From an uncultured Burkholderiales bacterium (GTDB taxonomy: Bacteria; Pseudomonadota; Gammaproteobacteria; Burkholderiales; Burkholderiaceae_C): a stretch of DNA of 64,000 bases. This document shows positions 9,233 through 28,006 of the stretch, one piece after another. How positions within the stretch are numbered: position 1 is the stretch's first letter; the number at the start of each line of letters is the position of its first letter. The position numbers and the translations under genes are program-made. The stretch spans positions 62,001 to 126,000 of the forward strand of contig CAIPFK010000152.1 in NCBI GenBank assembly GCA_903864315.1, given 5' to 3'. The notes below the pieces were generated by a model. The model did no database searches. It saw only the letters and a program-made list of their open reading frames with translations, and was not told the DNA's origin.

Positions 9233-9871
9233 ATGCAACTTGGTGCAGTCCTTCAAGCCGCAGGGTCCGCCTCTCGAATGGGATACAGACCCAAGTGTTT
9301 GCTTGAAATCAAGGGTCAAGCCTTGATTGTTCGAACCGCACAGGCCCTTTTGGATGCGGGCGTTCATGATTTGGTGGTGGTGGTTGGGCACTATGGCCTT
9401 GAGGTTCGGGCAGCGCTCAAAGATTTTCCTGTGACTTTCATTGAAAATCCCGAGCCTGAACTTGGCCAAGTCTCTTCTCAACGTCTGGGCCTATTGCACC
9501 TCATGCCCCATCACGATGCCATCATCATGGCCTTGGCCGATCAGCCTTTGATCGAAACCCAAGACGTTGCCGAACTCATTCATTTTTTTGAACAATGCAG
9601 CAAGTCCACCTCGGTGGTTTATCCCAGGGTGCACAACCAACCGGGTAACCCTGTGCTGCTGAGTGGCAAAGCACGAGAAGATATTTTGGCCTGCTCACCC
9701 GACATGGGTGTTCGCGATTGGAGGCGTTTGCACCAAGAAGAAGTGATGGCACTCGAGTGTGACAACACCCACTACATCACCGACCTGGATACCCCACAAG
9801 ACGTGCTCGCATTCACTGAGCGCACCGGTATTGAGTTGACTTGGCCTGCACTCCCATCAGCTCCAAAATAA
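9233..9871 (+). CDS. MobA/MocA-like NTP transferase (probable molybdenum cofactor cytidylyltransferase)
   Basis: GAVLQAAGSASRMGYRPKCLLEIKGQALI nucleotidyltransferase motif; ADQPLIETQDV; PGNPVLLSGK. Confidence 0.75.
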   Translation: MQLGAVLQAAGSASRMGYRPKCLLEIKGQALIVRTAQALLDAGVHDLVVVVGHYGLEVRAALKDFPVTFIENPEPELGQVSSQRLGLLHLMPHHDAIIMALADQPLIETQDVAELIHFFEQCSKSTSVVYPRVHNQPGNPVLLSGKAREDILACSPDMGVRDWRRLHQEEVMALECDNTHYITDLDTPQDVLAFTERTGIELTWPALPSAPK

Positions 9872-9878
9872 GAAATCT

Positions 9879-11228
9879 TCAGTTCAAACTCGGTGACTTG
9901 ACGTGACATAGCCCCGATGTCTGTAAGAAATATCCAACCCTGAGGGCCAAATCCTCACGCCAAGGTGCCGCAATGACTTGAACGCCCAAGGGAAGACCCT
10001 TCGCGGAGTCAGGCCAAACTGGGGCCGCCACCACGGGGCAGCCTGCAAAGGAGATGGGTTGGGTCAACACCCCCATGGCGGCACGGGCAGGCATGGTTTG
10101 GCCATTGATGACCAACCAATCGGTGCCGATTTCAATGGCAGGCACTGGCGTAGCGGGACAGATCAAGATATCCCAATGCCTGAAGAGATCATTGACTTTT
10201 TGTCGGTAAAGTCGCCTAAAGCGCTGTGCTTTGAGATACCACTCCACCGGTTGCAATGCACCGGCCAAGAATCGATCCACCGACAAGGGCTCAAAATCAG
10301 GCGCCTGGCGCTTGAGTTCCTCCAAATGGAGAACACCCCCTTCGCTGGCCGTCGTCACAAATGCCGCCGCACGGGCCAAATGGGCATCAGGCCATGACAC
10401 CACTTGAGTCGCCCCCAAGAGCTTGGCGACACTCTCGAGCGATTCCTGCGCAGCGTCCAAAGCGTGATCAGAAAAATAGTCGCCCAAGACACCAATGCGA
10501 AGACCGTGAATACCTTGACTCAAGCTCGGTCGCGTGGCATGGATGGACAGTGCTGCGCACCCGGGGTCCAAGGGATCGGGGCCTTGGATGGCGTCATAAC
10601 TTGAACTCAACAACTCAACGCCATTGGCAAATACACCCAGGTGATCAATGCTATTGACAAAGGGATAAGTTCCTCGCCTTGAGAGGCGTCCAAAGGTGGG
10701 CTTGATTCCCCAAACACCGCAAAGCGATGCGGGTACTCGGATAGAACCATTGGTGTCTGAGCCCAGACTAAAAGGCAGCATCTCCGCAGCCACGCTCGCT
10801 CCAGATCCACCCGAAGAGCCCCCGGCAATACATGAGAGTCGGTGTGGGTTGTGCGTGGGCCCATAATGGGTATTTTCCGTGGTGAATCCATACGCGAATT
10901 CATCCATGTTGAGGCAGCCCAACATGATGGCACCCGCTTTTTGAAGACGTTCCACCAAAACAGCGTCACTCTTGGCCGCAGGAGCCTGGGCCAAAATTTT
11001 GGAGCCTGCGATGGTGGTGACACCTTGAACATCAAATAAATTTTTTACGCCATATCCCACACCGCACAGGGGTGACACTGGCACGCCAGCGTTGATCAAT
11101 TGATCCGCTTGGTCGGCCTCAAGGCGCGCACGCTCAAAACTCTTGAACGTGAATGCATTGACCACCGGATCCACGCGTTCAATGGTTTGTATATGCTGCT
11201 CAATGCTGTCGCGAATGGTGTGTTTCAT
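9879..11228 (-). CDS. AtzE/HpxY-family amidase (amidase signature family)
   Basis: GVGYGVKNLFDVQGVTTIAGSKI, IAGGSSGGSGASVAAEMLPFSLGSDTNGSIRVPASLCGVWGIKPTFGRLS (amidase Ser-cisSer-Lys signature); adjacent AtzG-like gene supports the subfamily. Confidence 0.85.
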   Translation of the reverse strand: MKHTIRDSIEQHIQTIERVDPVVNAFTFKSFERARLEADQADQLINAGVPVSPLCGVGYGVKNLFDVQGVTTIAGSKILAQAPAAKSDAVLVERLQKAGAIMLGCLNMDEFAYGFTTENTHYGPTHNPHRLSCIAGGSSGGSGASVAAEMLPFSLGSDTNGSIRVPASLCGVWGIKPTFGRLSRRGTYPFVNSIDHLGVFANGVELLSSSYDAIQGPDPLDPGCAALSIHATRPSLSQGIHGLRIGVLGDYFSDHALDAAQESLESVAKLLGATQVVSWPDAHLARAAAFVTTASEGGVLHLEELKRQAPDFEPLSVDRFLAGALQPVEWYLKAQRFRRLYRQKVNDLFRHWDILICPATPVPAIEIGTDWLVINGQTMPARAAMGVLTQPISFAGCPVVAAPVWPDSAKGLPLGVQVIAAPWREDLALRVGYFLQTSGLCHVKSPSLN

Positions 11229-11264: not shown

Positions 11265-11474
11265 TCAGCGAAGGGGTAAATCCACCAGGTAGGGAGAAGG
11301 GACAAAAATTTCAACCAACTCAAGCTCAGGTGAAAAATCCAAGGCCATCAAATCCTTGGACATCAATTTGGTCCTCTCCAGATGCGCAGCAACGCGCTCG
11401 ATTTGGGCATCATCCAACTCCAAATCGATGGCCTCAGACACCACCTTCACATACTGCGTCATGCTTTGCTGCAT
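11265..11474 (-). CDS. AtzG/HpxX-like small subunit (DUF4089-type)
   Basis: 69-aa protein directly upstream of the AtzE-like amidase; size, VVSEAIDLELDDAQIERVAAHLERT and the operon position match AtzG/HpxX partners. Confidence 0.7.
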   Translation of the reverse strand: MQQSMTQYVKVVSEAIDLELDDAQIERVAAHLERTKLMSKDLMALDFSPELELVEIFVPSPYLVDLPLR

Positions 11475-11533: not shown

Positions 11534-12328
11534 TCAATGGCTTAGGCCGTGAAAACGCGATAAAAACTTTTGCGCTTTGTCCGTTTGTGGGTGATTGAAA
11601 AACTGCTCAGGCGGAGCCGATTCAACCACGCGACCTTGGTCCATGAAGACCACCCGATTGGAGACTTGTTTGGCAAAATGCATCTCGTGCGTCACAATCA
11701 CCATGGTGACTTGCTCAAGCGCCAGGGACTGAATCACCGACAGCACTTCACCCACAAGCATGGGATCGAGTGCGCTGGTGGGTTCATCGAGTAGCAGCAC
11801 TTCAGGCTTCATGGCCAAGGCTCTTGCAATTCCCACACGCTGCTTTTGACCACCCGACAATTTGGCAGGGAATTGTGCAAAATGGTCTTGCAGTCCCACT
11901 CTTTGTAAAATCAACATCGCCTCCTCACGCACCAATTTTTTATCTCGCTTTTGCACATGAATGGGTGACAACATCACATTGTCTAGAACACTCAAGTGTG
12001 GCCACAGGGCAAAACTTTGAAACACCATGCCAATGCGCGCACGCATTTGGGAGAGATCATGATCGTTCATTTTAACAACACCGTTGTCCCTCACCCCCAT
12101 TCGAACACCTGCAACATGGATACTGCCTGCATCAGGCACTTCCAGCCAATTGATGCACCGCAGCAAAGTTGATTTCCCGCAACCCGATGGGCCCAAGAGA
12201 CAAACAGTCTCGCCTTTTTTGACTTGTAAAGAGACGTCACTCAAAACGCTTTTTTGATCAAATTTTTTGGACACGCCATTGATTTGCAAAACCAACTCTG
12301 ACGCCTGAATATTCTCTTGCATAGACAA
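11534..12328 (-). CDS. Amino-acid-type ABC transporter ATP-binding protein
   Basis: Walker A LLGPSGCGKSTLLR; signature LSGGQKQRVGIARALAM; Walker B VLLLDEPTSALDP. Confidence 0.95.
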   Translation of the reverse strand: MSMQENIQASELVLQINGVSKKFDQKSVLSDVSLQVKKGETVCLLGPSGCGKSTLLRCINWLEVPDAGSIHVAGVRMGVRDNGVVKMNDHDLSQMRARIGMVFQSFALWPHLSVLDNVMLSPIHVQKRDKKLVREEAMLILQRVGLQDHFAQFPAKLSGGQKQRVGIARALAMKPEVLLLDEPTSALDPMLVGEVLSVIQSLALEQVTMVIVTHEMHFAKQVSNRVVFMDQGRVVESAPPEQFFNHPQTDKAQKFLSRFHGLSH

Positions 12329-12343
12329 TCCTGGGTGTTATTT

Positions 12344-13000
12344 TTAGGGCCTGCGCAATGTCGCGAATTGTTCAAACCTTCCCATCATCATCTCCATCAA
12401 CATGCAAATGATCCAATACAAGATCAGCGCGGTGATGAATGATGCAAATGGGATGAAGTATGTTGACTGAATGCCGTTGAGCTCATGGGTGAGCTCTTTG
12501 ACAGCAATGACGGTCAAGAAGGCGCTGTCCTTGAGAATCTGTATCAACTGATTGCCAATCATGGGCAAAGCCCGGATCAAGATAGGAGTCACCATGATAT
12601 GGCGCAACAAACCCCAACCGGTGAATCCAAATGAACGTCCTGACTCCAAGATGGAGGCTGGCAATTCAATCCATGCTCCTCTGAGCAACTCGGCCATATA
12701 GGCTGTGTTGTAGAGCACCAATGCCAGAGCTCCTGCTGTCCAATTCGACAACCTTAGGCCCAGGGAAGGAAGGCCAAAATAAATCAAATATACAAACAAC
12801 AAAAATGGCACGCAACGCATGGCATCCACATAGCATTGAACCATTTTGGCAAGGGCCTTTCGCGGCCCCACGAGCACAGGAGTCAACATCAATCCGAGCG
12901 CAATCGAGACTACACCCGAGAGCACAATCAAGATCAACGTATTGATCAAACCAATCCAAACCAATTCCCGATGATCCCAAATGAGAAAGAAATCATGCAT
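12344..13000 (-). CDS. Amino-acid-type ABC transporter permease
   Basis: Hydrophobic ORF with YVDAMRCVPFLLFVYLIYFGLP and AYMAELLRGAW, typical of the HisM/GlnP family. Confidence 0.9.
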   Translation of the reverse strand: MHDFFLIWDHRELVWIGLINTLILIVLSGVVSIALGLMLTPVLVGPRKALAKMVQCYVDAMRCVPFLLFVYLIYFGLPSLGLRLSNWTAGALALVLYNTAYMAELLRGAWIELPASILESGRSFGFTGWGLLRHIMVTPILIRALPMIGNQLIQILKDSAFLTVIAVKELTHELNGIQSTYFIPFASFITALILYWIICMLMEMMMGRFEQFATLRRP

Positions 13001-13644
13001 CAGATGTAGCCCTGCTCTTTCATTCGAACTTCAAAAAACTTTTGAAGTTTCAAAAAAACATAGACAATGGAGCTGTAGATCAACAAAGCAAATATAAAGG
13101 GGGGTAACGGCTCATACGTATTAGATCCCACCCTCAGCGCCGCACGGGTGATTTCAACGATTCCGATGACTGCAACGGCCGGCGTGGATTTAATTTGCAG
13201 CGTAATTTCATTAAAAATACCGGGTAAACTGGCGCGCCAAATTTGTGGGAACACAATCAATCGCATTCTCATGAACCGATTCAACCCCAACGCATTCGCC
13301 GCATCGAGCTGATCCTTGGGGAATTCAACCAGTGCACTTCGCCAAATTTCACAGTTGAAGGCTGTCGTGCTTAAAGTGAGGGCCAGCACAGCAGCAGGCA
13401 CAGGATTGAGCGATATACCAAACTCTGGCATTGCATAATAAATAAGCAACACCAGCGTCACAGCAGGACAAGACCGAATCACGTTGACATAGGCGTGGGC
13501 CAGACCTTTCAATACAGGGGTCTTGGCCCAGCGTATCAAGGCCAAGCCAAGGCCCAATGGAATACCAATGACTAAACTGGCGACGGACAAGGACACCGTA
13601 AAGATGGCGCCTTGCAAAATACTGTAATAGTCATTGGCATTCAC
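13000..13644 (-). CDS. Amino-acid-type ABC transporter permease
   Basis: YVNVIRSCPAVTLVLLIYYAMP; FNCEIWRSALVEFPKDQLDAANALGL EAA-type loop. Confidence 0.9.
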   Translation of the reverse strand: MNANDYYSILQGAIFTVSLSVASLVIGIPLGLGLALIRWAKTPVLKGLAHAYVNVIRSCPAVTLVLLIYYAMPEFGISLNPVPAAVLALTLSTTAFNCEIWRSALVEFPKDQLDAANALGLNRFMRMRLIVFPQIWRASLPGIFNEITLQIKSTPAVAVIGIVEITRAALRVGSNTYEPLPPFIFALLIYSSIVYVFLKLQKFFEVRMKEQGYI

Positions 13645-13659
13645 TGAAACATTCTCTAA

Positions 13660-14541
13660 TCAATTGACCGATTGGGGCATGGATTCAAATGTCGCACCAA
13701 ACCACTTCTTTTGCAGCTGATACATAGCACCACTCTTTCGAATATCGAGCAAAGCGCCATTCATGAGTTGGAGTACACCGGTGTTGCCCTTTTTCAAAGC
13801 CCAAGCGATGTAGACTGGATTGCCGACCTTGCCACCCAAGACGAACATGTCTGGCCTGGTTTGGATCAAGGAATTCAAGTTGATTTGCGTATTGGCAACT
13901 GCATCGAGTCGACCATTGCCCACATCTTGATAGGCCTCAGGATAGGACTGGTATTCCACAATTTCTTTGATTCCACTGCCGCCGTGTTTTTTCTTCAACT
14001 CCGCATCAAGGGCCTTCAAGTCACCAAGCATGGCGCTACCAGTTTGAGCACCCACCACCTTACCGACCAAGTCATCAGCAGACTTGACGCTGGAGCCTTT
14101 TTTCGTCGCAAAGTAGGTGGTAGATTCGGCCACGGGTGTGGTGAAATCAAAGGTGCCTTTACGCTCAGCGGTGACCAACACGGCTGTGACAGCTGCTTCG
14201 TATTTGCCAGTTGTGATGCCAGGCAAAATGCCAGGCCAAGGCATGATGTCTTGCTTGATATCGATGGAGATTTTTTTCTTGACGAGTCCCAGCAATTCGG
14301 TATCAAAACCAGTGGGAACTCCGTTTTCTACAAACTCAAAAGGCTTGAAATCGTCTTCTGTGGCAACGGCGATATAACCACGCGCCTTCACCTCATCCAA
14401 GCTTGCAGCCTGAACAACATGGAGTTGTCCGAGCGAGACCACAGAAGCCAACAATCCCAAACCACCGAGTTTGATGATTTGCCTCTTCCATGCGCTTGGC
14501 TTGGCTTGAGATGCACTGGGTTTGACAGAACGTAAAAACAT
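13660..14541 (-). CDS. ABC transporter substrate-binding protein (family 3, polar amino-acid type)
   Basis: Signal region, VKARGYIAVATEDDFKPFEFVENGVPTGFDTELLGLV; start taken at MFLRSVKPS. Confidence 0.9.
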   Translation of the reverse strand: MFLRSVKPSASQAKPSAWKRQIIKLGGLGLLASVVSLGQLHVVQAASLDEVKARGYIAVATEDDFKPFEFVENGVPTGFDTELLGLVKKKISIDIKQDIMPWPGILPGITTGKYEAAVTAVLVTAERKGTFDFTTPVAESTTYFATKKGSSVKSADDLVGKVVGAQTGSAMLGDLKALDAELKKKHGGSGIKEIVEYQSYPEAYQDVGNGRLDAVANTQINLNSLIQTRPDMFVLGGKVGNPVYIAWALKKGNTGVLQLMNGALLDIRKSGAMYQLQKKWFGATFESMPQSVN

Positions 14542-15063
14542 GTGAGTTCCTTTAATGAATGGGAGAAAACAATTGGCGTTCAATGGCTACTTAAAGATTT
14601 CGTTCCCATCTGAGCAATTCCACAAGCATTGATTTGCAGATGAATTACTCGATGGACTCAGTTGTTTTAGCAATTGATGTGCCAGTGAACACGACTGCGT
14701 TCAAACGAGTGTTGATTTCATCTGTCAAAGCATCTCTCGGCCATGAACAATTCAATCTGCATTGATTCACTAAGCCAAGCTTATAAATATTATTTTGGTG
14801 CCAGTCAAAATATTTAATGCCATCTTGGTGCGATAAAAATCCCTGCAATGGTGCAATGGGTATAGATTGACACGATGAACCGCCTGAAAAGACGAACCAT
14901 TGAACCACCAGACTTTGCATCGTTGAGTGAAACTTGCCAAGCAAAAACGATCTTCCACCCAGACAAAATTGCAATTGGCTCGACTTATGCTAGATCAATG
15001 CAAAGCGAATTGATCACGCGTCATCAACCTTTGCGTCCAATCCAACTCTGAAAGAATTTTCGA

Positions 15064-15687
15064 ATGTCCACTGCACAAAACTCCTCCCAACCCGTGTATC
15101 AAGAGGTCATTGCGGCCAAGGGTCGTTGGTCGCGAAGAATTGAAAAGGGTCAGTATTTGAAAATTATTGACCTTGAAGGACAGCAAGCGGTGGATTTCTT
15201 ATGCTATTCAGCCGAATTGCCCATCGACCGGCTCAATATACCCAACACCGTCAAACTCAACAAATCACTCTACGTTGAAAAAAATCATGTCATTTATTCA
15301 GATCTGGCAAAAAAAATGTTCACCGTGGTTCAAGACACCTGCGGATTGCATGACACTCTGGCTGGCTGCTGCAGCAATGAAATTGACTACGTGCGTTATG
15401 GTGTTGTCAAAACCCAAAGTTGCCGCGCCAACTTCACAGCTGAATTGGCCAAGTGGTCGATGTCAACCTCAGACATCGTCTCCAATATCAACTGGTTCAT
15501 GCGCGTGACCGTCGGTGCTCATGGTGAAGTCGAAATTGTGCCCAGCACCTCCAAGCCAGGAGATCATGTCTTACTAAGAGCGGAGATGCCCATCATTGCC
15601 GTGATCTCCAATTGTCCTCAAGAGCACAATGCGGCCGCTGGCTTTAAGCCCACCCCCATCGAAGTTTCGGTTTGGGATCAAGAGTAA
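15064..15687 (+). CDS. DUF1989 family protein (urea carboxylase-associated family)
   Basis: GRWSRRIEKGQYLKIIDLEGQQAVDFLCYSA...TCGLHDTLAGCCSNEIDYVRYG...MRVTVGAHGEVEIVPSTSKPGDHVLLRAEMPIIAVISNCPQEHNAAAGFKPTPIEVSVWD. Confidence 0.85.
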   Translation: MSTAQNSSQPVYQEVIAAKGRWSRRIEKGQYLKIIDLEGQQAVDFLCYSAELPIDRLNIPNTVKLNKSLYVEKNHVIYSDLAKKMFTVVQDTCGLHDTLAGCCSNEIDYVRYGVVKTQSCRANFTAELAKWSMSTSDIVSNINWFMRVTVGAHGEVEIVPSTSKPGDHVLLRAEMPIIAVISNCPQEHNAAAGFKPTPIEVSVWDQE

Positions 15688-15724: not shown

Positions 15725-17011
15725 TTGGAAACCCCCATGATGTATGACACTTTGCTTCTAAACGGACAGGTGATGGACCCTTGCGAGCATCTTGAAGGAA
15801 TCATGGACATCGCCATCAAGGATGGGAAAATTGTGGCCATTGAGCCTCACATTGACGTTGGCCTGGCAAAAAATATCATTCAAGCGCGTGACCATTTGGT
15901 CCTGCCTGGACTCATTGACACCCACGCCCATGTTTTTGATTTGGTCACGGGTCGATTTGGCGTGGATGCCGACCTCTCCGGGGTTTATTCAGGTGTGACC
16001 ACGCTGATAGACCAAGGTGGACCGTCATGCATTACCTTACCCGCTTTTAGACGTCACGTTGTAGAGGCCAAAAAAAGCAAGGTCGTTGCCTTTTTATCCT
16101 CTTATTTGGTAGGAGGCCTTGAAGGCCACTACTATCCCTCTCTCTACAAACCCGACTGCCTCGATGTGGATGCCACCGTCAAGAGCGCCTTGGCCAACGC
16201 AGACATTGTCAAAGGCTTTAAAGCCCATGCTGAATTGGGTGGGTTTGCCAGATGGGGAATGAAGGTCATGGAGTTGTGCGCTGAAATCGCACAGCAAGCC
16301 AATTTACCGCTTTACATCCATTTTGGTCAACTCTGGCCACTCCCAGCGGACGGCAATCACAGCGTTGACGCTGACACCATCCTTGAGCAAGTGGTCAACC
16401 TCTTGAAGCCTGGCGACATTTTGGCTCACCCGTTCACCCGTCATCCAGGAGGATTCGTTAACCGCCAAGGGCAAGTTCACCCCATCGTCAAAGAGGCCAT
16501 TGCGAAAGGCTTGAAGATCGATGTGGGACACGGCTCACACTTTAGTTTCAACATGGCGCGCATTGCGCTTGATGCAGGTATTGTCCCCGACACTTTGGGG
16601 GCAGACTTGCATGGCTACAACAGCCATATCCCCAAACCTGCTGGCACCCCAGATGAACACTCAGATTCCGAGCACATGTTTGCTGGCAGCGTTAAATTCT
16701 CATTGGTCTCCACCATGACCGCCATGCTGGCCCTTGGCCTGAAACTAGAGGACATCATTCCCATGGTGACCAGTGCTCCTGCCGCCATGGCTGGCTTGAG
16801 CGATGAGGTGGGCCACTTGAGAGTGGGCAGCACTGCAGACATCTCGATCTTGAAAGATCACCGAGGTAAATGGTGGCTCAAAGACAATGAAGGCACACAA
16901 GTGCTGACAGAGCGGCTCCTCACACCCGAATTCTGCCTTCGCCAAGGCGTGCTCTACACAGCCAATGCCAGTGTGCTCCCACAACTGTCTGAATTCAAGT
17001 TGGCCGCATGA
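15725..17011 (+). CDS. Amidohydrolase/deacetylase family metallohydrolase (dihydroorotase/dihydropyrimidinase-related fold)
   Basis: DTLLLNGQVMDP, LVLPGLIDTHAHVFD metal motif, FKAHAELGG, GSTADISIL; in-frame ATG alternatives at 15737/15740. Confidence 0.8.
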   Translation: METPMMYDTLLLNGQVMDPCEHLEGIMDIAIKDGKIVAIEPHIDVGLAKNIIQARDHLVLPGLIDTHAHVFDLVTGRFGVDADLSGVYSGVTTLIDQGGPSCITLPAFRRHVVEAKKSKVVAFLSSYLVGGLEGHYYPSLYKPDCLDVDATVKSALANADIVKGFKAHAELGGFARWGMKVMELCAEIAQQANLPLYIHFGQLWPLPADGNHSVDADTILEQVVNLLKPGDILAHPFTRHPGGFVNRQGQVHPIVKEAIAKGLKIDVGHGSHFSFNMARIALDAGIVPDTLGADLHGYNSHIPKPAGTPDEHSDSEHMFAGSVKFSLVSTMTAMLALGLKLEDIIPMVTSAPAAMAGLSDEVGHLRVGSTADISILKDHRGKWWLKDNEGTQVLTERLLTPEFCLRQGVLYTANASVLPQLSEFKLAA

Positions 17012-19398
17012 CAAATCTCCATTCAAAAAGCGACAAGGGCGTTGGCGCAAGTCTCAAAAGAAAGGAAGACAAACGCTTTTTAAGTGGTCAAGGCGAATAC
17101 GTTGGCAACATTCAAATCCCGGGCATGCTTGAAGTCGCTTTTGTTCGCTCAAGCCTAGCCCATGCCCATTTGCGCAGCATTGTAAAACCCGCCGGATTGG
17201 AACATCAAGTCTTCACCATGCATGACCTGCATGGCGTCAAGCCCATTCAAGCGCGAACTCAATTGGAGGGCTTCAAGTCCAGCGATCAATGGCCCTTGGC
17301 CAAAGATAAGGTACGCCAAGTCGGTGAGTTGGTGGCCATGTGTGTGGCTCCCACTCGGGCTGAGGCCGAGGACATTGCCCAACAAGTCATGGTCGAGTAC
17401 GATGAAATCCCAAGCGTAGTGGACATGCTCACTGCACGAACCTCACCGCCCGCCTTGGTGCACGAACATTGGGGCGATAACGTCTTTTTAACCAGCAAAA
17501 AAACTGGAGACCTTTCACACATTCGCGAGGTCGCCAAATACAAAATCACCAAGCACCTCAAAACCGCCAGACAAGTCATGTCACCAATGGAAGGCCGCGG
17601 CGTGGTGTGCCAATGGAATGAGCGTCTTGAACAACTGCTCATGTACAGTGCCGCTCAAATGCCGCACATCAACCGCGCAGGGCTTTCCGAGTGCCTAGGG
17701 CTTGGTCAAGCCAGTATTCGAGTGGTGGCGCCTGATGTGGGTGGAGGATTTGGCTACAAGGGCATCTTGTTGCCAGAAGAAATTTGTCTTGCTTGGCTGA
17801 GTATTCACTTGGGCAAACCGGTCAAATGGATCGAAGACCGTCGCGAACAACTCACCGCCAATGCCAATTGCCGAGAGCACGCTTATGACATCACTGTCTA
17901 TGGCGACGACCAAGGTCGACTGCTGGGCATTGAGTGCGAAGCCACTGTGGACTCAGGTGCTTACTCCTCCTATCCATTTTCGGCTTGTCTAGAGGCGGCT
18001 CAAGTCGTCTCCATCCTACCCGGCCCCTACAAAATGCAAGGCTATGAATGCACAGCATATTCTGTGGCCACCAACAAGCCACCGATCTTGCCCTACCGTG
18101 GTGTGGCCAGAACCGATGTCTGTTTTGCACTTGAAGTGATGATGGATGCCATGGCCAGAGAAATGGACATTGAGCCCTACCAACTGAGACTCAACAGTCT
18201 TATCTCCAAAGACGAGATGCCCTATGACAATATCACGGGTAAACATTTTGATTCTGGCAACTACCATTTGGCCGTTGAAAAAGCGGTAGAGGCGCTCGAC
18301 ATTAAAAAATGGCGCGCCTTGCAGCAGCGTCAAAACAAAAAAGACCATGGCGAGGCTTTGATCGGCGTGGGGCTGGCAGTGTATTGCGAGCAAGCCGCTC
18401 ATGGCACATCGGTTTATCACGGTTGGGGGATCCCCATGGTCCCGGGGCATGAACAATGTCATGCCCGAATGACGCCCGATGGCTCCCTTGAGTTGCGCGT
18501 TGGCGCACACTCTCACGGCCAAGGCTTGGAGACCACCTTGGCCCAAGTTGCCAATGAAGTGCTCGGCATTGATCCACAACACGTCAGGGTCTTGCATGGC
18601 GACACCGCCATGACCCCCTACTCGACCGGAACTTGGGGCTCTCGATGCATGGTAATGTCTGGTGGTGCTGTGGCACAAGCGTGTAAGCTCATGCATCAAC
18701 GACTCGTCAAAATTGCCAGTTTTTTACTCGGCACCCCTGCCCAAGGCTTGATCACCAAAAACCAATGTATCCAAAGCCTTGATGGTCAACAAAGTCTCTC
18801 CATCGCAGAACTTTGTCACGTTTGGTACCGCCAGCCTCAGCGTTTGCCACCCGATGTGGACCCTGCTGGACTGGAGGTGACCGCTGGCTACAAACCCTTG
18901 GTTGACACGGGCACATTCAGCTATGCCTGTCATGCTGTGGCACTGAGAGTGGACACCGACACTGGAGCAGTGAGTATTTTGGATTACGTCATTGCAGAAG
19001 ATGCGGGTGTCATGGTCAACCCAATGATCGTCGAGGGACAAATCATCGGCGGTTTGGCTCAGGGCATTGGAACTGCACTATATGAAGAGATGAATTACGA
19101 CGACCAAGGTCAACCCCAATCCTCCACTTTGGCAGACTATTGCTTGCCAGGTGCCACCGAAGTTCCAACCCCCACGATCATTCACTTAGAAACACCCTCG
19201 CCTTACACAAGTTTTGGTCAAAAGGGCATTGGTGAGGGTGGCGCCATTGGTCCGCCTGCAGCCATTGCCAATGCGGTGAATGACGCCTTGAGACTATGGG
19301 GAGTGGAGATGACAGAGTTGCCCATTACACCTCGAAAAATTCTCACTTCACTGGCCAGAGCAAAAACCAATTTGCACGTAGGGGTGACAACATCATGA
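17008..19398 (+). CDS. Molybdenum hydroxylase large subunit (xanthine dehydrogenase/CO dehydrogenase superfamily)
   Basis: 796 aa; VGASLKRKEDKRFLSGQGEYVGNI, DVGGGFGYKG, SHGQGLETTLAQVANE, FGQKGIGEGGAIGPPAAIANAVNDAL (active-site Glu motif). Confidence 0.93.
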   Translation: MTNLHSKSDKGVGASLKRKEDKRFLSGQGEYVGNIQIPGMLEVAFVRSSLAHAHLRSIVKPAGLEHQVFTMHDLHGVKPIQARTQLEGFKSSDQWPLAKDKVRQVGELVAMCVAPTRAEAEDIAQQVMVEYDEIPSVVDMLTARTSPPALVHEHWGDNVFLTSKKTGDLSHIREVAKYKITKHLKTARQVMSPMEGRGVVCQWNERLEQLLMYSAAQMPHINRAGLSECLGLGQASIRVVAPDVGGGFGYKGILLPEEICLAWLSIHLGKPVKWIEDRREQLTANANCREHAYDITVYGDDQGRLLGIECEATVDSGAYSSYPFSACLEAAQVVSILPGPYKMQGYECTAYSVATNKPPILPYRGVARTDVCFALEVMMDAMAREMDIEPYQLRLNSLISKDEMPYDNITGKHFDSGNYHLAVEKAVEALDIKKWRALQQRQNKKDHGEALIGVGLAVYCEQAAHGTSVYHGWGIPMVPGHEQCHARMTPDGSLELRVGAHSHGQGLETTLAQVANEVLGIDPQHVRVLHGDTAMTPYSTGTWGSRCMVMSGGAVAQACKLMHQRLVKIASFLLGTPAQGLITKNQCIQSLDGQQSLSIAELCHVWYRQPQRLPPDVDPAGLEVTAGYKPLVDTGTFSYACHAVALRVDTDTGAVSILDYVIAEDAGVMVNPMIVEGQIIGGLAQGIGTALYEEMNYDDQGQPQSSTLADYCLPGATEVPTPTIIHLETPSPYTSFGQKGIGEGGAIGPPAAIANAVNDALRLWGVEMTELPITPRKILTSLARAKTNLHVGVTTS

Positions 19399-20243
19399 AG
19401 TCTGCCGCTTTCAACTTCATATCTCCTGCGCTTTTGTTAAACGCATTGGAGCTCCAAACGCAATACCCCAACTACAGTAAATTTCTGGGTGGCGGTCAAT
19501 CCATGGGCCCCATGCTCAATTTGAGACTGGCACAACCCGATCAATTGGTGAGCCTTCAACGCATCGCCGGACTCAAAGCCCATCGCCTTCAAGAGTCCAA
19601 GCTGTTTTTGGGGGCCTTGACAACCCATGCACAAATTGAAGACAAAGTGGTTCCAGACGTCACCCAAGGATTCATGCCCTATGTTGCGGCCAACATCGCC
19701 TACCGCGCCATTCGCAACCAGGGAACTCTGGGCGGCAGTTTGTGCCACGCCGATCCGGCCGCCGATTGGGTAAGCACCATGATGGTGTTGGACGCGACAG
19801 TGCACATGAGCCGCCTGGGCGCCAATGGGAACATGGAAACACGTCACATGGCGGTCAGTGACTTTATGCTAGGCGCTTTCACCACCGAGATTCATGAAGA
19901 CGAAATCCTCACGAACATCAGTATTTCGGCCTTTCCCCCTGACGCACACTGGGGGTACTATAAAATTTGTCAAAAACCAGGTGAATTTGCTCGCTCTATC
20001 GCGGCCGTTTTATCCATCGAAAGTCTTGGGGTGCATCGCATCGTGGTAGGTGCCACACACTCGAAGCCCATATTGATCAACGACGCCAAGCCACTTTTGC
20101 ACTCTTGTGACAAAGGGGCTATTCAAGTCACATTGCGTGAACATGGATTGGAGGCAGACGACTTTGAGTTTCAAAACCATGTGACCGCTGTTATCCGAGC
20201 CATTCGCATGGCTTCGATGCCTCACTCAGACCCTCATCATTAA
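19395..20243 (+). CDS. Molybdenum hydroxylase FAD-binding medium subunit
   Basis: LGGGQSMGPMLNLRLAQPDQLVSL and RNQGTLGGSLCHADPAADW FAD motifs; start at MKSAAFNF overlaps the upstream stop (ATGA). Confidence 0.92.
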   Translation: MKSAAFNFISPALLLNALELQTQYPNYSKFLGGGQSMGPMLNLRLAQPDQLVSLQRIAGLKAHRLQESKLFLGALTTHAQIEDKVVPDVTQGFMPYVAANIAYRAIRNQGTLGGSLCHADPAADWVSTMMVLDATVHMSRLGANGNMETRHMAVSDFMLGAFTTEIHEDEILTNISISAFPPDAHWGYYKICQKPGEFARSIAAVLSIESLGVHRIVVGATHSKPILINDAKPLLHSCDKGAIQVTLREHGLEADDFEFQNHVTAVIRAIRMASMPHSDPHH

Positions 20244-20256
20244 CCCACCAATCGCC

Positions 20257-20733
20257 ATGCAAACCATTGCCCTGAGTTTAGAAGTGAACGGTCAATTCGT
20301 TGAGCGCCAAATTCAAGTGCGTTCCAGTCTGGCTGATTTTTTGCGTGAGGACTTAAGGCTGTCGGGGACGAATTTGGGATGCGAGCATGGTGTGTGCGGG
20401 GCTTGTACCCTTGACATTGATGGAGCTCCCGCGCGCTCTTGCATCACCTTGGCAGCCAATTGCGAGGCCAAAAAGGTAAGAACCATTGAGGATTTTCAAA
20501 ACGATGAAGTGATGGCAGCCTTGAGGGACGCCTTTTCTAGGGAGCACGCACTTCAATGCGGTTATTGCACACCAGGCATGCTCATGACGGCTCGAGATAT
20601 CGTCATGCGAATTCCATTCGCAGATGAGGCTCGTGTGCGCAAGGAGTTGGCTGGCAATTTATGCCGCTGCACAGGTTACTCAGGCATCGTCAAAGCCATT
20701 ATGAGTGTTTTGGATGCTAGATCCAATCAATGA
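20257..20733 (+). CDS. Molybdenum hydroxylase small subunit with two [2Fe-2S] clusters
   Basis: GCEHGVCGACTLDIDG, CGYCTPGMLMTA, LCRCTGYSGIVKAI cysteine motifs. Confidence 0.95.
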   Translation: MQTIALSLEVNGQFVERQIQVRSSLADFLREDLRLSGTNLGCEHGVCGACTLDIDGAPARSCITLAANCEAKKVRTIEDFQNDEVMAALRDAFSREHALQCGYCTPGMLMTARDIVMRIPFADEARVRKELAGNLCRCTGYSGIVKAIMSVLDARSNQ

Positions 20734-20800: not shown

Positions 20801-22078
20801 ATGAATCAATTAGACCAACACATTCGTTTGGCGAATCAAAAAGCCATTGAAAAACTTCTAAGCGTGAGGCCACAACTGATCTCAGTGGGAAGTGCACTGT
20901 CGGCTCTGGGGCTCAAAAATTACACCATCTTGCATGCAGGGCCACCCTTAAAAGATGTTGAGAAACTGCCAAAAACCATTGAATCATCCATTGTATTGTC
21001 TGCACTTTATGAAGGATGGGCCAGCAATGAACAAGAGGCGTTGAAGCTCTTGCATCAAGGACTCATTGAGCTCAAACCTGCTCAAGATTTCCGATGTGTG
21101 ACACCACTGGCCGCCATGATCACGCCCAAAACCACTTTGCTGTGCGTCAATGATGCCAACTCCGACTTGCCTGCTTGTTTTGCTCCACTCTCCAGTGGCC
21201 CTGGACCCGATATCCGCTTTGGCACCAACAATCCCGAGGTGCTGAGCAGCCTTACACTGCGCGATACGCTCATCTTTAGCGCAATGAAGGCTGCTTTGAA
21301 TACGCCACTCGATCTCTTTCATTTTGCATCTCTAGGGCTGCAAGGCGGAGACGAGTTGCACTCAAGCACTGCAGCCGCCACCCAGGCACTGGGCTTAGAA
21401 ATTCACGACAGACTCACGCAAACTCAATTTGCCCATGACCAAATTCATATCGTGCAAGAGTTGATAAAAAGCAATCCCGGCTTTTTCTTAACCCCTTGGA
21501 TGGCCGCTTGCAAACTGATGCTCTCAAGCATCGAGGGCATCCCCTACTGCAGTTTCATCACTCGAATCGGCGGCAATGGCGAGTGCATGGGGTTATCAAT
21601 CTCACATGACCCAACGCTTTGGCACAAGCAAATGGCAACTCCTCCAATAGGAATGCGGTTTGGTCATGTCCATCAAACCGTCGAGGTCGAAGGCGTTGTG
21701 GGTGACAGCTGTGTGATTGATGCCATGGGTTTTGGAGGGCAAATCACCAGTGCGAGCCCCCAAGTCTTACTAACACTCCAAGAGCATTTACCCAAAGATT
21801 ACGCCCTTCGCGCGGCTCACATCATGAGCACCGATCACGATTATTTCTCCTCTTGCATGAGTCGCTCAAATGCTGAGCACGAAGCCCCAACAGCGCCGAA
21901 AGTGCGTTGTGGCTTGGATCTTTTGAAGATCATCCAAGGAAAATGTTATCCTTTGGTGAACATTGCCATGTTGGCGCATGATGGGACCCATGGCCTTTTG
22001 GGCAGAGGCTTGTACGAACTCGATCCATTGCTTTGTGACCAAGCAGCAAAACAGTTACCCACCCACTCTTCAATTTAA
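20801..22078 (+). CDS. DUF1116 family protein (YlbE/AllG-YahG-like)
   Basis: 425 aa; overall pattern, including ITRIGGNGECMGL and IVDAMGFGG-like segments, resembles YlbE/YahG. Confidence 0.7.
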   Translation: MNQLDQHIRLANQKAIEKLLSVRPQLISVGSALSALGLKNYTILHAGPPLKDVEKLPKTIESSIVLSALYEGWASNEQEALKLLHQGLIELKPAQDFRCVTPLAAMITPKTTLLCVNDANSDLPACFAPLSSGPGPDIRFGTNNPEVLSSLTLRDTLIFSAMKAALNTPLDLFHFASLGLQGGDELHSSTAAATQALGLEIHDRLTQTQFAHDQIHIVQELIKSNPGFFLTPWMAACKLMLSSIEGIPYCSFITRIGGNGECMGLSISHDPTLWHKQMATPPIGMRFGHVHQTVEVEGVVGDSCVIDAMGFGGQITSASPQVLLTLQEHLPKDYALRAAHIMSTDHDYFSSCMSRSNAEHEAPTAPKVRCGLDLLKIIQGKCYPLVNIAMLAHDGTHGLLGRGLYELDPLLCDQAAKQLPTHSSI

Positions 22079-22103: not shown

Positions 22104-22487
22104 ATGATCATCAATCAAAAAGAAACCTTGGAAGAATTGACGCGAGTCTTTGCCGAATACGAAACCGCCTTGGTCAACAATGATGTTCAGACCTTGGACC
22201 GTTTGTTTTGGAATAACCCTCTCACCATTCGATATGGTGCTGGTGAAAATTTGTATGGATACGATGAGATTCAAGCGTTTCGAAATGCCCGATCCCCCAA
22301 GGGGCTCAATAGAACCATCACCCAACAAGTGATCACCACCTATGGAGATGCGCTGGGGTGCTCACACATTGAATACGTCAACCTGAGCTCGGGTCGCGCT
22401 GGCCGACAAACGCAAACATGGATGAAGCATGAGGGACAATGGGTGGTGGTGAGTGCACATGTCTCATGGCTGGAACTGCCCAAATGA
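22104..22487 (+). CDS. AtzH/HpxZ-like protein (DUF3225, NTF2-like fold)
   Basis: FWNNPLTIRYGAGENLYGYDEIQAFRNAR...ITTYGDALGCSHIEY...GRAGRQTQTWMKHEGQWVVVSAHVSW. Confidence 0.8.
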   Translation: MIINQKETLEELTRVFAEYETALVNNDVQTLDRLFWNNPLTIRYGAGENLYGYDEIQAFRNARSPKGLNRTITQQVITTYGDALGCSHIEYVNLSSGRAGRQTQTWMKHEGQWVVVSAHVSWLELPK

Positions 22488-22507: not shown

Positions 22508-23014
22508 TTACAAAAATCGATCCAAGAGTTTTCGACTCAATCGATCCATGGCCGATAAATTCTTAATTAAAAATTGAACGCCATAGGCGTCTGAGACGAT
22601 GAGCGTATTGACATTCAAACGCTTGATGTCCTCCTCACCATTCAACAGCAACTGGGTGTAGCCTCGAGTGGTTTGAATTCGCCAATGACAAGGTGTGACA
22701 TAACCACTCACGGAATCCAATTTTAAAATCTCCGGCATGAATTCACGTCCTTGCAAGCACAGGGTCAACGCCTCTTTGAGCTCGCCGGAAAGACCGACCA
22801 AGGAATCAAACCAACAGAGTTCTTTGCCCTCGCGACTCAGTATTGACACACCTTCATCAGGACTCATGATGGGAAAGGCCCTGACCGCCGTCACGTGGTC
22901 ATGAACCTCGTGCTCGATGCTCAAATGCCAAACACCAAAAGCGTCGGCCCAAAGCTTTGGGGCATTGAGGTCCAATCGAGTTGAAGTGGGGGTTGAAGTT
23001 TCAGTGGATGACAT
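22508..23014 (-). CDS. DUF1854 family protein (cyanophycin-metabolism-associated)
   Basis: 168 aa; VRAFPIMSPDEGVSILSREGKELCWF, next to a DUF1854-type ABC exporter and cphA genes. Confidence 0.75.
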   Translation of the reverse strand: MSSTETSTPTSTRLDLNAPKLWADAFGVWHLSIEHEVHDHVTAVRAFPIMSPDEGVSILSREGKELCWFDSLVGLSGELKEALTLCLQGREFMPEILKLDSVSGYVTPCHWRIQTTRGYTQLLLNGEEDIKRLNVNTLIVSDAYGVQFLIKNLSAMDRLSRKLLDRFL

Positions 23015-23036
23015 GAATGAAATTTTCTAAATTCGC

Positions 23037-25400
23037 TCAAACCACTTGCGCGTTCAGCGCCAAATGATGCGACAAATCAACATGGGCTGTGGCGAGGGCA
23101 TCTTGGGCCTGCTGGGCCTGGGCTTCATAAAGGCGCCAGTAAGCACCTTGGGCTGCCAGCAATTCGTCATGCCCGCCCTCCTCAACTTTCACACCTTGCT
23201 CCAAGACGACCAATCGATCGGCGCGCTTCAAGGTCGAGAGTCTGTGCGCAATGGCGATGGTGGTTCTGCCCTTGACCAAGTTGTCCAATGCTTTTTGGAT
23301 TTCTTGCTCTGTTTCTGTGTCTACCGAGGATGTGGCTTCGTCCATGATCAAAATTTTGGGATTGATGAGCAAAGCGCGGGCGATGGAGATGCGTTGGCGC
23401 TCGCCGCCAGACAGTCCCTGTCCACGCTCCCCCACCAAGGAATCATAGCCTTGGGGTAATCGCAAGATGAATTCGTGAGCATGCGCCGCTCTGGCGGCAG
23501 AGATGATTTCTTGCCTGGAGGCGGTGCTTTTGCCATACGCGATGTTGTCCGCAATGGTGCCAAAAAACAGATAGGGCTCTTGCAAGACCAGGCCAATGTG
23601 ACTGCGGTATTGCGCCAAGGGAAACCGCCTGATGTCCACGCCGTCGACGCTGATTTGACCCTCGCTCAGGTCGTAAAAGCGACAAATCAAATTCACCAGG
23701 GTACTTTTACCCGAGCCACTTTGACCGACCAAGCCTATCATCTCACCGGGCTGAATATTCAAATCCAAATTTTTGATCACCAAACGATTGCCGTACCGAA
23801 ATGAGGCATTGGTGAGCCTGATCTCGCCTCGAACATGGGTGAGTGCAATCGGATCTTTGGGCTCAGGAACACTGGAGACGTGGTCCAAGATTTCAAAGAT
23901 ACGCTTGGTCCCTGCCGCTGCCTTTTGGGTATGCGAGACAATTCGACTCATTGAATCGAGTCGGGTATAAAAGCGACCAATGTAGGCCAAAAAGGCAGTC
24001 AACACGCCCACCGTGACTTTGTGCTGAGAAACTTGCCAAATCCCAAAGGCCCACACCACCAATAGACCTACTTCGGTCATCAAGGTGACTGTCGGGGAGA
24101 ACAAGGACCATAAAAAATTGATGCGGTCATTGACGGCCAAATTGTGCTTGTTGGCCTCTCTAAAGCGAGCACTCTCACGCCCCTCTTGGGCAAACGCTTT
24201 CACCACCCGAATACCAGGAATGGTGTCGGCCAGCACATTGGTGAGCTCGGACCAGACGCGGTCGATTTTCTCAAACCCCAATCTGAGCCTGTCTCTCACC
24301 ACATGAATGAGCCACCCAATGAAAGGCAGGGGCAGCAAAGTGGCCATGGCCAAATAGGGATCAATGCTGAACAAAATGAGGGACGTCATCACAATCATCA
24401 AAAAATCGGTCGCAAAATCCAACAAATGCAAGGACAAAAACACGCAAATGCGGTCTGTCTCCCCACCGATTCGGGTCATCAAGTCTCCCGTGCGACGCCC
24501 GCCAAAGTACTCCAAGGACAATTTCATCAAATGCTCATAAGCGGTGGTGCGCAAATCCGCTCCAATGCGCTCTGAGACCAATGCCAATATATAGGTTTTG
24601 ATCCACCCAAGGCCCCACGCCAATAAGGCCGCCCCCAACAATCCAAACAAGTACTTGGACACCGTTGAAGCTTCGATTTGTTGTCCGTTTTGAAATGGGA
24701 TCAACACCTCGTCCATGAGGGGCATGGTCAAATAAGGTGGCACCAAGGTGGCGGCGGTGGAACACAAGGTCAATCCAAACCCCAACGCCAATCGGGCACG
24801 GTATGGCTTTGCAAATCGCCAAAGCCTCAACAGCCCCCAAGTCGATGGAGTGCTGTCTTCAATGGCGCCTTCACCCGCTATCGATGGTGCTGAACAAACC
24901 TCACAGTGGCTTAGGCCGATCTTGACATCTTCACTACAACTCACGCATCGACCCGCAGTCTGCGCCCGAGTTTTCGCTTGCAAGTTCTGACTCAATGGGT
25001 TTGAAGCCAACTCCTGTGCCCTGGACACGGCCGCGTTCCACGCTTCTTGCAAAGACACGGCTTGGACATTGTGGGCCAAAGTAAAACGCCAACGGGCCAA
25101 TCGCTTTTGGGCATCGAGCAACTCCAAGGAGCCCACGCCGGCATAATCTTGGTGAACGAGTCTGGCCAAGCCTTCAATCGGGAAAACTTGGCAACCCCAA
25201 TCCGCGCTCAACGTAGCGCGCTCAGCAGGCATCCACGACAACAATCTCTCGTTGGTGGCCACCAAAAACCCTTGGATAAACTTTAAATCAAGACTCAAGT
25301 CAACTTCTAGCCACCCCAAAACGTTTTCATGGGTATGGAGTTGCGATTTGACCAAAGCATGCAGGCTTGGTGGCAAAGGAACTTGGCTAGACATGGACAT
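23037..25400 (-). CDS. ABC exporter, fused permease/ATPase (cyanophycin-metabolism-associated type) with N-terminal zinc-ribbon-like insert
   Basis: Walker A GLVGQSGSGKSTLVN, LSGGERQRISIARALL, ILIMDEATSSVD; N-terminal CVSC-X10-CEVC. Confidence 0.92.
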   Translation of the reverse strand: MSMSSQVPLPPSLHALVKSQLHTHENVLGWLEVDLSLDLKFIQGFLVATNERLLSWMPAERATLSADWGCQVFPIEGLARLVHQDYAGVGSLELLDAQKRLARWRFTLAHNVQAVSLQEAWNAAVSRAQELASNPLSQNLQAKTRAQTAGRCVSCSEDVKIGLSHCEVCSAPSIAGEGAIEDSTPSTWGLLRLWRFAKPYRARLALGFGLTLCSTAATLVPPYLTMPLMDEVLIPFQNGQQIEASTVSKYLFGLLGAALLAWGLGWIKTYILALVSERIGADLRTTAYEHLMKLSLEYFGGRRTGDLMTRIGGETDRICVFLSLHLLDFATDFLMIVMTSLILFSIDPYLAMATLLPLPFIGWLIHVVRDRLRLGFEKIDRVWSELTNVLADTIPGIRVVKAFAQEGRESARFREANKHNLAVNDRINFLWSLFSPTVTLMTEVGLLVVWAFGIWQVSQHKVTVGVLTAFLAYIGRFYTRLDSMSRIVSHTQKAAAGTKRIFEILDHVSSVPEPKDPIALTHVRGEIRLTNASFRYGNRLVIKNLDLNIQPGEMIGLVGQSGSGKSTLVNLICRFYDLSEGQISVDGVDIRRFPLAQYRSHIGLVLQEPYLFFGTIADNIAYGKSTASRQEIISAARAAHAHEFILRLPQGYDSLVGERGQGLSGGERQRISIARALLINPKILIMDEATSSVDTETEQEIQKALDNLVKGRTTIAIAHRLSTLKRADRLVVLEQGVKVEEGGHDELLAAQGAYWRLYEAQAQQAQDALATAHVDLSHHLALNAQVV

Positions 25401-25801
25401 TCAGTAAGGGGCAATTCGCAATGTTGAATAAAAAAGAATCCAAAGGGGGGCCCAAACTTCAGGTCAAGATGCTGGGTTGGCGCCATGGTGTTTGAACTCA
25501 CTGGCCATGATCAAAACCCTATAACGCCCCAAACCCCCATTGGGTTGACTTGCGCATCATTGTAGTCCCCATCCACCCCTTCGAAATTGACCACCACCCA
25601 CCCTTTTTAGCCGTCAAAGCAGCAGAAAGTCGATCAAAAAAAGTGATAATCAAGACCCTTGTCCTTTGTGGTGACACCAGTTGTCAAAAACCGCCAACCT
25701 CTCAAGTGCGAGGCAACACGATCAAATCGCATTTTGCCCATTGTGACTTGACTGTTTGTTAGGCTCACTCGTCATCATCCCTCCAACACAGAAACTGCAC
25801 C

Positions 25802-28006
25802 ATGTCACATCAAGACATTCAAATTCTCAAAATGCGCTATTTGAGCGGGCCCAACATCTGGACCTACCGCTCGGTGATTGAAGCTTGGGTTGATTTGGGT
25901 GAATTGGAGCAATTCCCCTCCAATTTGATTCCCGGCTTTTATGAGCGACTGACCACGTGGTTGCCTGGACTGATCGAGCACCGCTGTGGCATCGGTGAGC
26001 GAGGCGGCTTTTTGCTGCGTCTGAAAGATGGCACGTGGGCTGGTCACATCATGGAGCACGTGGCCCTTGAGTTGCAGACCTTGGCGGGTTTGGAGACTGG
26101 GTTTGGCAAAGCACGTGAGACCAGCACCTCAGGCATTTACAAAGTCGTCATTCGAGCGGCTCAAGAAGAGGTTGGCCGCCAAAGCTTGCTGATGGCCAAA
26201 GACTTGGTCATGGCGGCCATCAATGACACGCCCTTTGACATGATGACCACGGTCAAACAGATGAAGCGCTTGGTGGACAAATTGTGTTTGGGCCCCAGCA
26301 CCAATTGCATCGTCGAAGCGGCTGTTGCCAGGCGCATACCCAGCATTCGACTCACCGAAGGCAACTTGGTGCAACTTGGATACGGCAAGAAGCAACGCCG
26401 CATTTGGACCGCAGAGTCCGACCACACCAGTGCGATTGCCGAAAATATCTCCAGCGACAAAGATCTCACCAAGCAGTTGCTTCAAAACTGTGGCATCCCA
26501 GTCCCTGAAGGCTCCTTGGTGAACAGTCCAGAGGAAGCTTGGAGCGTGGCCCAAGACATTGGGCTGCCCGTGGTGATCAAACCCACCGACAACAACAATG
26601 GCATTGGTGTCTCCCTGGGGCTCAAGACCGAAGAGGGCGTCAAAGCGGCTTATCACATTGCCGATGCCGCTGGCTCAGAGGTACTGGTCGAGCGCTACAT
26701 CTTGGGTGACGAGCATCGTTTGCTGGTGGTGGGCAACCACTTGGTCGCTGCGACCAAGGGCGAAACCGTCAGCGTGATTGGAGACGGCGTGCACACGGTC
26801 TCCGAGCTGATCGAGCTTCAAATCAACTCAGACCCCAGGCGCGGACGGGAAGACCACTTCCCCATGGACATCATTCGTTTGAATGAAAACCCCCAAGATT
26901 TGCTACAAATCGAGAGCCAAGGCGTTAAACCTGAGACGGTCATTGAGAGTGCGCGAGAAATCATCGTCAAGCGCGACGGCAATTTGAACAACGACGTGAC
27001 CGATCTGGTTCACCCCGAGGTGGCAGCTGCCGTGTGTTTGGCCGCTCGCGTGGTGGGACTTGACATTGCAGGCATTGATTTGGTCGCCCAAGACATCTCC
27101 CGCCCCTTGAGTGAGCAAGGAGCGGCCATTGTTGAGGTGAATGCTGGCCCAGGCCTCTTGATGCATTTGAAGCCTCTCACTGGCAAACCCAGGCCTGTGG
27201 GACAAGCCATCATCGATCACTTGTTCTCCAAAAAAGAAAATGGGCGCATCCCCATTGTTGGCGTGCTGGGTTCGACACAAACCACCTTGCTCTCACACTT
27301 GATCACGTGGCTTGTTCACCTCTCAGGTCTTCGCGTTGGACTGGCCTGCCAAGAAGGCCTCTACATGGATCAGCGCAAAGTTCAATCCCAAGACGCTCGG
27401 GACTACGCCATTGGCGAGCGACTCCTCATCAACCGCACGCTCGAGGCGGCTATTTTTCAGACTTCGCCGTGGCATATTTTGCAAGACGGTTTGCCCTATG
27501 ACCGCTGTTTGGTGGGAGTCGTGACGGACATGAACCGGCAAGCCTGGGATTTGGACGATCATGACATCCACGACGAAGAGAAATTCAAGAGTGTCATGCG
27601 CACCCAAATTGACTTGGTTTTGAGCGAAGGCGTCAGTGTGCTCAATGCCCAGGATGAAAAGGTGTTGGAATTGGCCCGGTACAGCGATGGGGAGGTGATT
27701 CTTTACTCCACCGATTACAGCATCCAGGCCATCCAACAAAACCGCGCACAAGGTCGGCGCAGCGTCTACTTCCGAGATGGCCATGTCGTGCTGGCGCGCG
27801 GAGATCAAGAAACCTTGCTCTTTCACCTCGAGTTTCCACCCATTGCCGTGCGCATCCAACAAGATGGTTTTCAGTTGGAGACCATCTTGGCCGGTGTCGC
27901 CTGTGCTTGGGCGCTTGACATCGCGCCGTTGCTCATCAGAGCGGGCTTGAAAAATTTCGGCCAAACCACCAACGCTGTGCCACAAGAAGTTAGGACTCGT
28001 GCATGA
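25802..28006 (+). CDS. Cyanophycin synthetase-like protein with degenerate Mur-ligase domain (CphA'/CphA2-like)
   Basis: CphA N-terminal and ATP-grasp motifs (LGPSTNCIVEAA, KPTDNNNGIGVSL, VEVNAGPGLLMHLKP); P-loop degenerate (GSTQTT); 734 aa. Confidence 0.85.
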   Translation: MSHQDIQILKMRYLSGPNIWTYRSVIEAWVDLGELEQFPSNLIPGFYERLTTWLPGLIEHRCGIGERGGFLLRLKDGTWAGHIMEHVALELQTLAGLETGFGKARETSTSGIYKVVIRAAQEEVGRQSLLMAKDLVMAAINDTPFDMMTTVKQMKRLVDKLCLGPSTNCIVEAAVARRIPSIRLTEGNLVQLGYGKKQRRIWTAESDHTSAIAENISSDKDLTKQLLQNCGIPVPEGSLVNSPEEAWSVAQDIGLPVVIKPTDNNNGIGVSLGLKTEEGVKAAYHIADAAGSEVLVERYILGDEHRLLVVGNHLVAATKGETVSVIGDGVHTVSELIELQINSDPRRGREDHFPMDIIRLNENPQDLLQIESQGVKPETVIESAREIIVKRDGNLNNDVTDLVHPEVAAAVCLAARVVGLDIAGIDLVAQDISRPLSEQGAAIVEVNAGPGLLMHLKPLTGKPRPVGQAIIDHLFSKKENGRIPIVGVLGSTQTTLLSHLITWLVHLSGLRVGLACQEGLYMDQRKVQSQDARDYAIGERLLINRTLEAAIFQTSPWHILQDGLPYDRCLVGVVTDMNRQAWDLDDHDIHDEEKFKSVMRTQIDLVLSEGVSVLNAQDEKVLELARYSDGEVILYSTDYSIQAIQQNRAQGRRSVYFRDGHVVLARGDQETLLFHLEFPPIAVRIQQDGFQLETILAGVACAWALDIAPLLIRAGLKNFGQTTNAVPQEVRTRA

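Follow-up and report, generated by a model that had tools for sequence, protein, structure and literature searches.

The DUF1116 gene at positions 20801 to 22078 (+ strand) of the DNA analyzed here raises the question of what a relative of a transcarbamylase subunit does where the other subunits of that enzyme are missing. In E. coli the family is represented by AllG, part of the oxamic transcarbamylase AllFGH (FdrA-YlbE-YlbF), whose three subunits are all required for the splitting of oxalurate with phosphate (PMC11326118). The window, i.e., the whole stretch under study, comprises 64,000 nucleotides of an uncultured Burkholderiales bacterium (GenBank assembly GCA_903864315.1, contig CAIPFK010000152.1, positions 62,001 to 126,000). 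No earlier account of a DUF1116 protein free of FdrA (hereafter solo), or of the gene cluster described below, was found in open-access full texts, subscription papers being outside the scope of that search.

Results

Family membership and missing partners

The 425-aa protein matches PF06545 (AllG, DUF1116) with 159.4 bits (E=1.2e-46, gathering cut-off 27) over the complete domain (1-215 of 215), and nothing placed it in another family, so that its first-pass annotation as AllG/YlbE-like was confirmed; in a scan of the source genome it was the sole PF06545 match. A structure search with its AF2 model (pLDDT 88.5, pTM 0.92) retrieved 3clq, a DUF1116 structure from Enterococcus faecalis with the same fold (TM-score 0.89-0.91) at 23% identity, and no distant fold relatives besides. 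Since this sole fold match is of unknown function, the fold offers no mechanism to borrow.

The first-pass annotation had also reported that FdrA and DUF2877 partners were lacking, and had called for a genome-wide search for both and for carbamate kinase. None of the three was found in the source genome: a profile search gave no match to AllH (DUF2877), there was no match to carbamate kinase (AllK), and the best match to FdrA was a SucD-like stretch (E=1.5e-5); genomes that do carry FdrA gave E=1e-90 to 1e-180. As this assembly (G000) consists of 314 contigs and is 89.6% complete, absence there alone is weak. FdrA and AllH were likewise not found in the single-contig relatives G450 and G714, with positive controls giving matches, nor in Pseudomonas sp. 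LS-2, Ruegeria haliotis, Oxalicibacterium flavum and two Pseudorhodoferax, which bears out the earlier claim well beyond the window; carbamate kinase, too, was missing from single-contig relatives that carry this subfamily. An unchanged reaction with partner subunits encoded elsewhere was rejected, as these partners were not found genome-wide.

Across 399 genomes of the order, PF06545 scores fell into two classes of about 279-336 and 99-185 bits, with one partial match of 119 bits that is probably a fragment. Genomes with low-class matches only carry neither AllH nor FdrA, whereas those of the high class carry both, the exception being G277, where FdrA is present and an AllH match is absent; FdrA-type genes occur alongside a solo gene in Herminiimonas, G277 and G418. 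When genomes were tested for carbamate kinase, none of seven with a solo gene had it, and each of three FdrA-type controls did. The solo subfamily is thus shown to work without FdrA/AllF, AllH and, in 7/7 genomes tested, AllK. The window protein is a member of PF06545, yet it is not part of a three-subunit oxamic transcarbamylase, because three defining parts were looked for and none was found.

Phylogeny and diagnostic residues

In a maximum-likelihood tree of 51 rows, in which long branches were flagged by the program, solo and FdrA-type DUF1116 proteins were separated with 100/100 support, the branch between them being roughly two changes per column long. One solo row (L012, Ruegeria) joins beside the FdrA-type side of the root, and from this position the solo proteins may be paraphyletic. 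The same division is seen in an alignment of 66 sequences, where W51, K133, N190 and R258 (E. coli numbering) mark 35/35 FdrA-type proteins (part of them confirmed by genome search or annotation, the rest assigned by sequence; K133 is replaced by R in one) and 0/31 solo proteins. The window protein, about 30% identical to FdrA-type AllG, is without all four, and loss of the cationic K133 and R258 would fit a lost handling of phosphate or of a partner.

Other positions are common to both types. H44, H187, N259, W274, D301 and S302 (E. coli numbering) are kept wherever aligned, D or E stands at 184 and 185 throughout, and R136 is kept in all except two Rhodococcus copies. In solo DUF1116 this polar core reads H45/R139/D184-E185/H187/N259/D302-S303, R139 being the residue lost in Rhodococcus. 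The solo subfamily and its conserved cluster are very probably real.

A second FdrA-free lineage was noticed in G741 (L090, 8497-11761), whose AllG-like protein is 41% identical to E. coli AllG and branches beside the FdrA-type clade; it too has lost W51, K133, N190 and R258, and its genome gave no FdrA or AllH match. After it come genes for an amidase and a DUF2237 protein, and an Amidohydro_1 enzyme and a Rieske oxygenase are encoded nearby.

Gene neighborhood in the window

The earlier description had the DUF1116 gene alone, with a Mo-hydroxylase on one side and an AtzH-like gene on the other. Both flanks were correctly named, but the setting was understated: a DUF1989 gene and a cog3964 amidohydrolase gene belong to the same gene run, and the opposite strand encodes an ABC transporter as well as an AtzE-family amidase and its AtzG-like subunit.

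Downstream, after 25 nt, lies a predicted decarboxylating amidohydrolase of the HpxZ/AtzH type (22104..22487, +, 127 aa; 22104 is the better start), which scores 159.6 bits against a cut-off of 135 with the NCBIfam HpxZ model (NF033625) and 4.7e-48 with Pfam AtzH-like. AtzEG is known to deaminate and AtzH to decarboxylate carboxylated ureas, the substrate of AtzH being an N-carboxy urea (PMC6219798); compared with that work, the catalytic Tyr and Arg of AtzH are conserved. Directly upstream (17008-20733, all +) are the three subunits which, together with the catalytic Glu motif, characterize an N-heterocycle Mo-hydroxylase: the large subunit (17008..19398, PF02738/PF20256, GEGG motif at 742), whose closest PDB entry is quinoline 2-oxidoreductase (1t3q, 6.3e-135), the FAD subunit (19395..20243, PF00941, 3e-36; likely start 19395, the listed ORF running from 19296) and the 2Fe-2S subunit (20257..20733, PF01799/PF00111). 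They are preceded by the cog3964 amidohydrolase (15725..17011, +), which is of the PRK09237 type (NF006689, 401.6 bits, cut-off 371; PDB 2ogj, 8je0) and in which, by eye, the binuclear-metal ligands are apparently present. At the head of the operon stands a DUF1989 protein related to UAAP1/UAAP2 (15064..15687, +; PF09347, 4.1e-57, with TIGR03424/TIGR03425 below cut-off), found only in the window and L009 among the loci checked, a hint that in this genus the substrate is amino-substituted.

On the minus strand, a transporter for polar compounds (11534..14583: ATPase, two permeases and a family 3 binding protein; PF00497, PF00005) is homologous to that of a Pseudomonas cluster (55-65% identity to L011). 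Behind its genes are those of the AtzG-like small subunit (11265..11474, 69 aa; PF13318, 27.5 bits, cut-off 24), which reaches 16.9 against a cut-off of 70 with the HpxX equivalog, and of the amidase of the HpxY/AtzE type (9879..11228; TIGR02715, 633.5 bits, cut-off 425.75; AtzE structure 6c62, 1.5e-191). A MobA-like NTP transferase (9233..9871, +; PF12804, 1e-31) is a possible Mo-cofactor cytidylyltransferase for the hydroxylase. BLAST against cluster proteins found no HpxW-type gamma-glutamyltransferase (GGT) near these genes.

The DUF1116 region is adjoined by genes for a DUF1854 protein, two cyanophycin synthetases of the CphA-like kind and an ABC exporter (22508-30582); the DUF1854 protein is assigned to cyanophycin metabolism by NCBIfam, and these genes are probably a separate system.

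A conserved cluster in other genomes

Genes for cog3964 enzymes 47-85% identical to that of the window lie beside solo DUF1116 genes in beta-, gamma- and alphaproteobacteria (window, L009, L011, L013-L016, L018-L020, L051, L053-L058, L086-L088, L106, L108, L112). Of the 399 genomes of the order, 19 have a close cog3964 (identity 60% or more) and 12 have a solo DUF1116; the two coincide in 11 genomes, which represent five genera. Expressed otherwise, 11/12 solo genomes carry the amidohydrolase as against 8/387 others (Fisher p=1e-15, kinship ignored). Other regular companions are either a Mo-hydroxylase akin to quinoline 2-oxidoreductase or a Rieske oxygenase plus reductase, and in addition a MarR regulator, HpxZ/AtzH, amidase and GGT. 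The order in Caballeronia (MarR, cog3964, Mo-L, Mo-M, Mo-S, CoxG-like, DUF1116, hpxZ, amidase, plus an ABC transporter) closely parallels that of the window, the gene set occurs in Azospirillum too, and four Pseudomonas genomes encode DUF1116 fused to HpxZ as a single uninterrupted polypeptide. The cluster seems to oxidize, open and dismantle N-containing ring compounds.

The set is variable. GGT genes, which NCBIfam assigns to gamma-glutamyltransferases only and below cut-off, occur at L011, L015, L016 and L107 and in Pseudomonas, Pseudorhodoferax and Azospirillum; near L051, L053 and L056 a BLAST screen showed neither HpxZ nor an amidase or GGT. At L012/L109 and L013 the DUF1116 gene directly adjoins or overlaps that of an amidase, and no AtzG gene stands beside those amidases in the spans read. 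In GC-rich loci gene calling was crude, and absences of small genes there are weak. Solo genes in Ruegeria, Paracoccus and Rhodococcus have no cog3964, and Rieske oxygenases, oxidoreductases or formate dehydrogenase are nearby. Conversely, cog3964 is also found without DUF1116, and in such clusters no non-homologous stand-in for DUF1116 was evident among the neighbors, which are binding proteins, regulators and unrelated genes.

In Ruegeria, two tandem proteins of ~210 aa (L012 8734-9998, L109 8731-9989), similar to each other by eye and without a Pfam match, lie between the Rieske oxygenase and the solo DUF1116; they are possibly Rieske accessory subunits.

Discussion

The solo DUF1116 proteins are a widespread partner-free group and more than a local oddity. 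The first-pass suggestion that either the subunits or the reaction differ from those in E. coli holds for subunit composition, which is shown across many genomes; a different reaction is likely, given that carbamate kinase is missing, no sign of carbamoyl-phosphate use was seen and the neighbors are enzymes of oxidative ring degradation.

Three known systems invite comparison. AllFGH with AllK shares with the window the family and polar core of its DUF1116 protein, and FdrA-type sets on plasmids likewise come after ring-opening or ureide hydrolases; the window protein differs in having neither AllF, AllH and AllK nor the four diagnostic residues, and in its oxidative cluster. With HpxWXYZ the window has in common an HpxZ above the curated cut-off, an AtzE-family amidase and an AtzG-like subunit, while GGT appears in some related clusters; the HPX set, however, is without DUF1116, cog3964 and Mo-hydroxylase, and the window cluster is without GGT and an HpxX above the model's cut-off. 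The logic of the cyanuric acid pathway AtzDGEHF, i.e., ring opening, deamination by AtzEG and decarboxylation by AtzH, is recognizable as well, but AtzD is absent from the cluster, the ring would be opened by cog3964, an amidohydrolase above the PRK09237 cut-off (2ogj and others), and DUF1116 and the hydroxylase are added.

Because AllFGH acts on oxalurate, AtzEG and AtzH on carboxylated ureas, and FdrA-type sets follow ring-opening or ureide hydrolases, we infer the following pathway. The Mo-hydroxylase, elsewhere a Rieske oxygenase, would put oxygen next to a ring nitrogen, and the cog3964 amidohydrolase would open the ring to an acyl-urea or similar imide-type acid (R-CO-NH-CO-NH2, e.g., oxalurate or ureidomalonate). 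The solo DUF1116 would bind this acid by its polar core and cleave it with water, not phosphate, forming no carbamoyl phosphate; HpxZ would then take the carboxyl off the N-carboxy product, and the remaining amide or ureido group would fall to hydrolysis by a GGT-like enzyme or by an amidase, for which the window has AtzE/AtzG. Taken as a whole, a solo DUF1116 in an oxidative N-heterocycle cluster with an acyl-urea pathway is our preferred explanation, though one we rate slightly short of probable; acyl-urea hydrolysis as the reaction of DUF1116 is put forward with a little more reserve. The explanation as a whole is supported by the HpxZ neighbors, by the DUF1116-HpxZ fusion in four Pseudomonas genomes and by an FdrA-type DUF1116 that comes after a ring-opening amidohydrolase on an enterobacterial plasmid. 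The explanation is weakened by L051, L053 and L056, which show that the downstream steps are not universal, by the loss of R139 in Rhodococcus, by cog3964 occurring without DUF1116 and by a fold matched by 3clq only. Moreover, AtzE/AtzG and HpxZ of the window could, by known logic, handle an acyl-urea without DUF1116, and this redundancy, together with the loci without HpxZ, is the weakest link of the pathway.

The same gaps would also fit a reading in which the solo protein acts on a ring-opened intermediate other than an acyl-urea (by hydrolysis of another imide or amide, or as lyase or isomerase), HpxZ and the amidases belonging to a later or parallel branch. HpxZ, amidase and GGT are not universal at solo loci, the Paracoccus, Ruegeria and Rhodococcus copies lack a cog3964 neighbor and are accompanied by Rieske oxygenases, oxidoreductases or formate dehydrogenase, and R139 is dispensed with in Rhodococcus. 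The polar core, however, is common to AllG, which acts on oxalurate, and HpxZ is often a neighbor or even directly fused, so that we consider this reading possible, if somewhat doubtful. Abutting or overlapping amidase genes that have no AtzG beside them could instead indicate a non-catalytic, structural amidase partner in place of the AtzG/HpxX subunit; this is improbable, as an AtzG is already present in the window, no amidase is seen at many solo loci, the polar core is invariant at almost every residue, and DUF1116 differs from AtzG in fold and size. Still less credit is due to a one-subunit oxamate transcarbamylase that continues to make carbamoyl phosphate: family and core are the same, but three subunits are required in E. 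coli (PMC11326118), the cationic K133 and R258 are lost, and there is no carbamate kinase. That FdrA and AllH were simply overlooked in an assembly of 89.6% completeness and 314 contigs is rejected as hardly conceivable, since single-contig relatives equally lack them, the same absence recurs in about 20 genomes, and W51, K133, N190 and R258 are gone.

Returning to the acyl-urea pathway, its boldest form would make the solo DUF1116 protein an unrecognized enzyme class with a fold otherwise known from 3clq only, a phosphate-independent acyl-urea hydrolase central to a widespread aerobic pathway not yet described (hydroxylase, cog3964, DUF1116, HpxZ, amidase), which we regard as rather unlikely as it stands. 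If it were true, FdrA and AllH would be add-ons that made an energy-saving transcarbamylase out of a hydrolytic activity, unless the change ran the opposite way. In any case, a large family that has shed two AllG partners along with the four residues tracking them allows the division of labor in the transcarbamylase to be tested. The finding further suggests an oxidative N-heterocycle pathway, so far undescribed, in Pseudomonadota and Actinomycetota, supplies a genomic context for cog3964 enzymes, and means that solo DUF1116 genes should not be annotated as oxamate carbamoyltransferase subunits.

Both types of DUF1116 gene were also met on plasmids. Enterobacterial conjugative plasmids (L114, L115) carry FdrA-type DUF2877-FdrA-DUF1116-carbamate kinase sets, accompanied by a ring-opening amidohydrolase and a nucleobase symporter or by a cysteine hydrolase and a cytosine permease. 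On pmega_2, a conjugative megaplasmid of Rhodococcus ruber (L111/L116), two solo DUF1116 genes lie on either side of a formate dehydrogenase operon, in a region adjoining malate synthase G and Rieske/VanB pairs, a context that may hint at an N-methyl substrate and glyoxylate as product.
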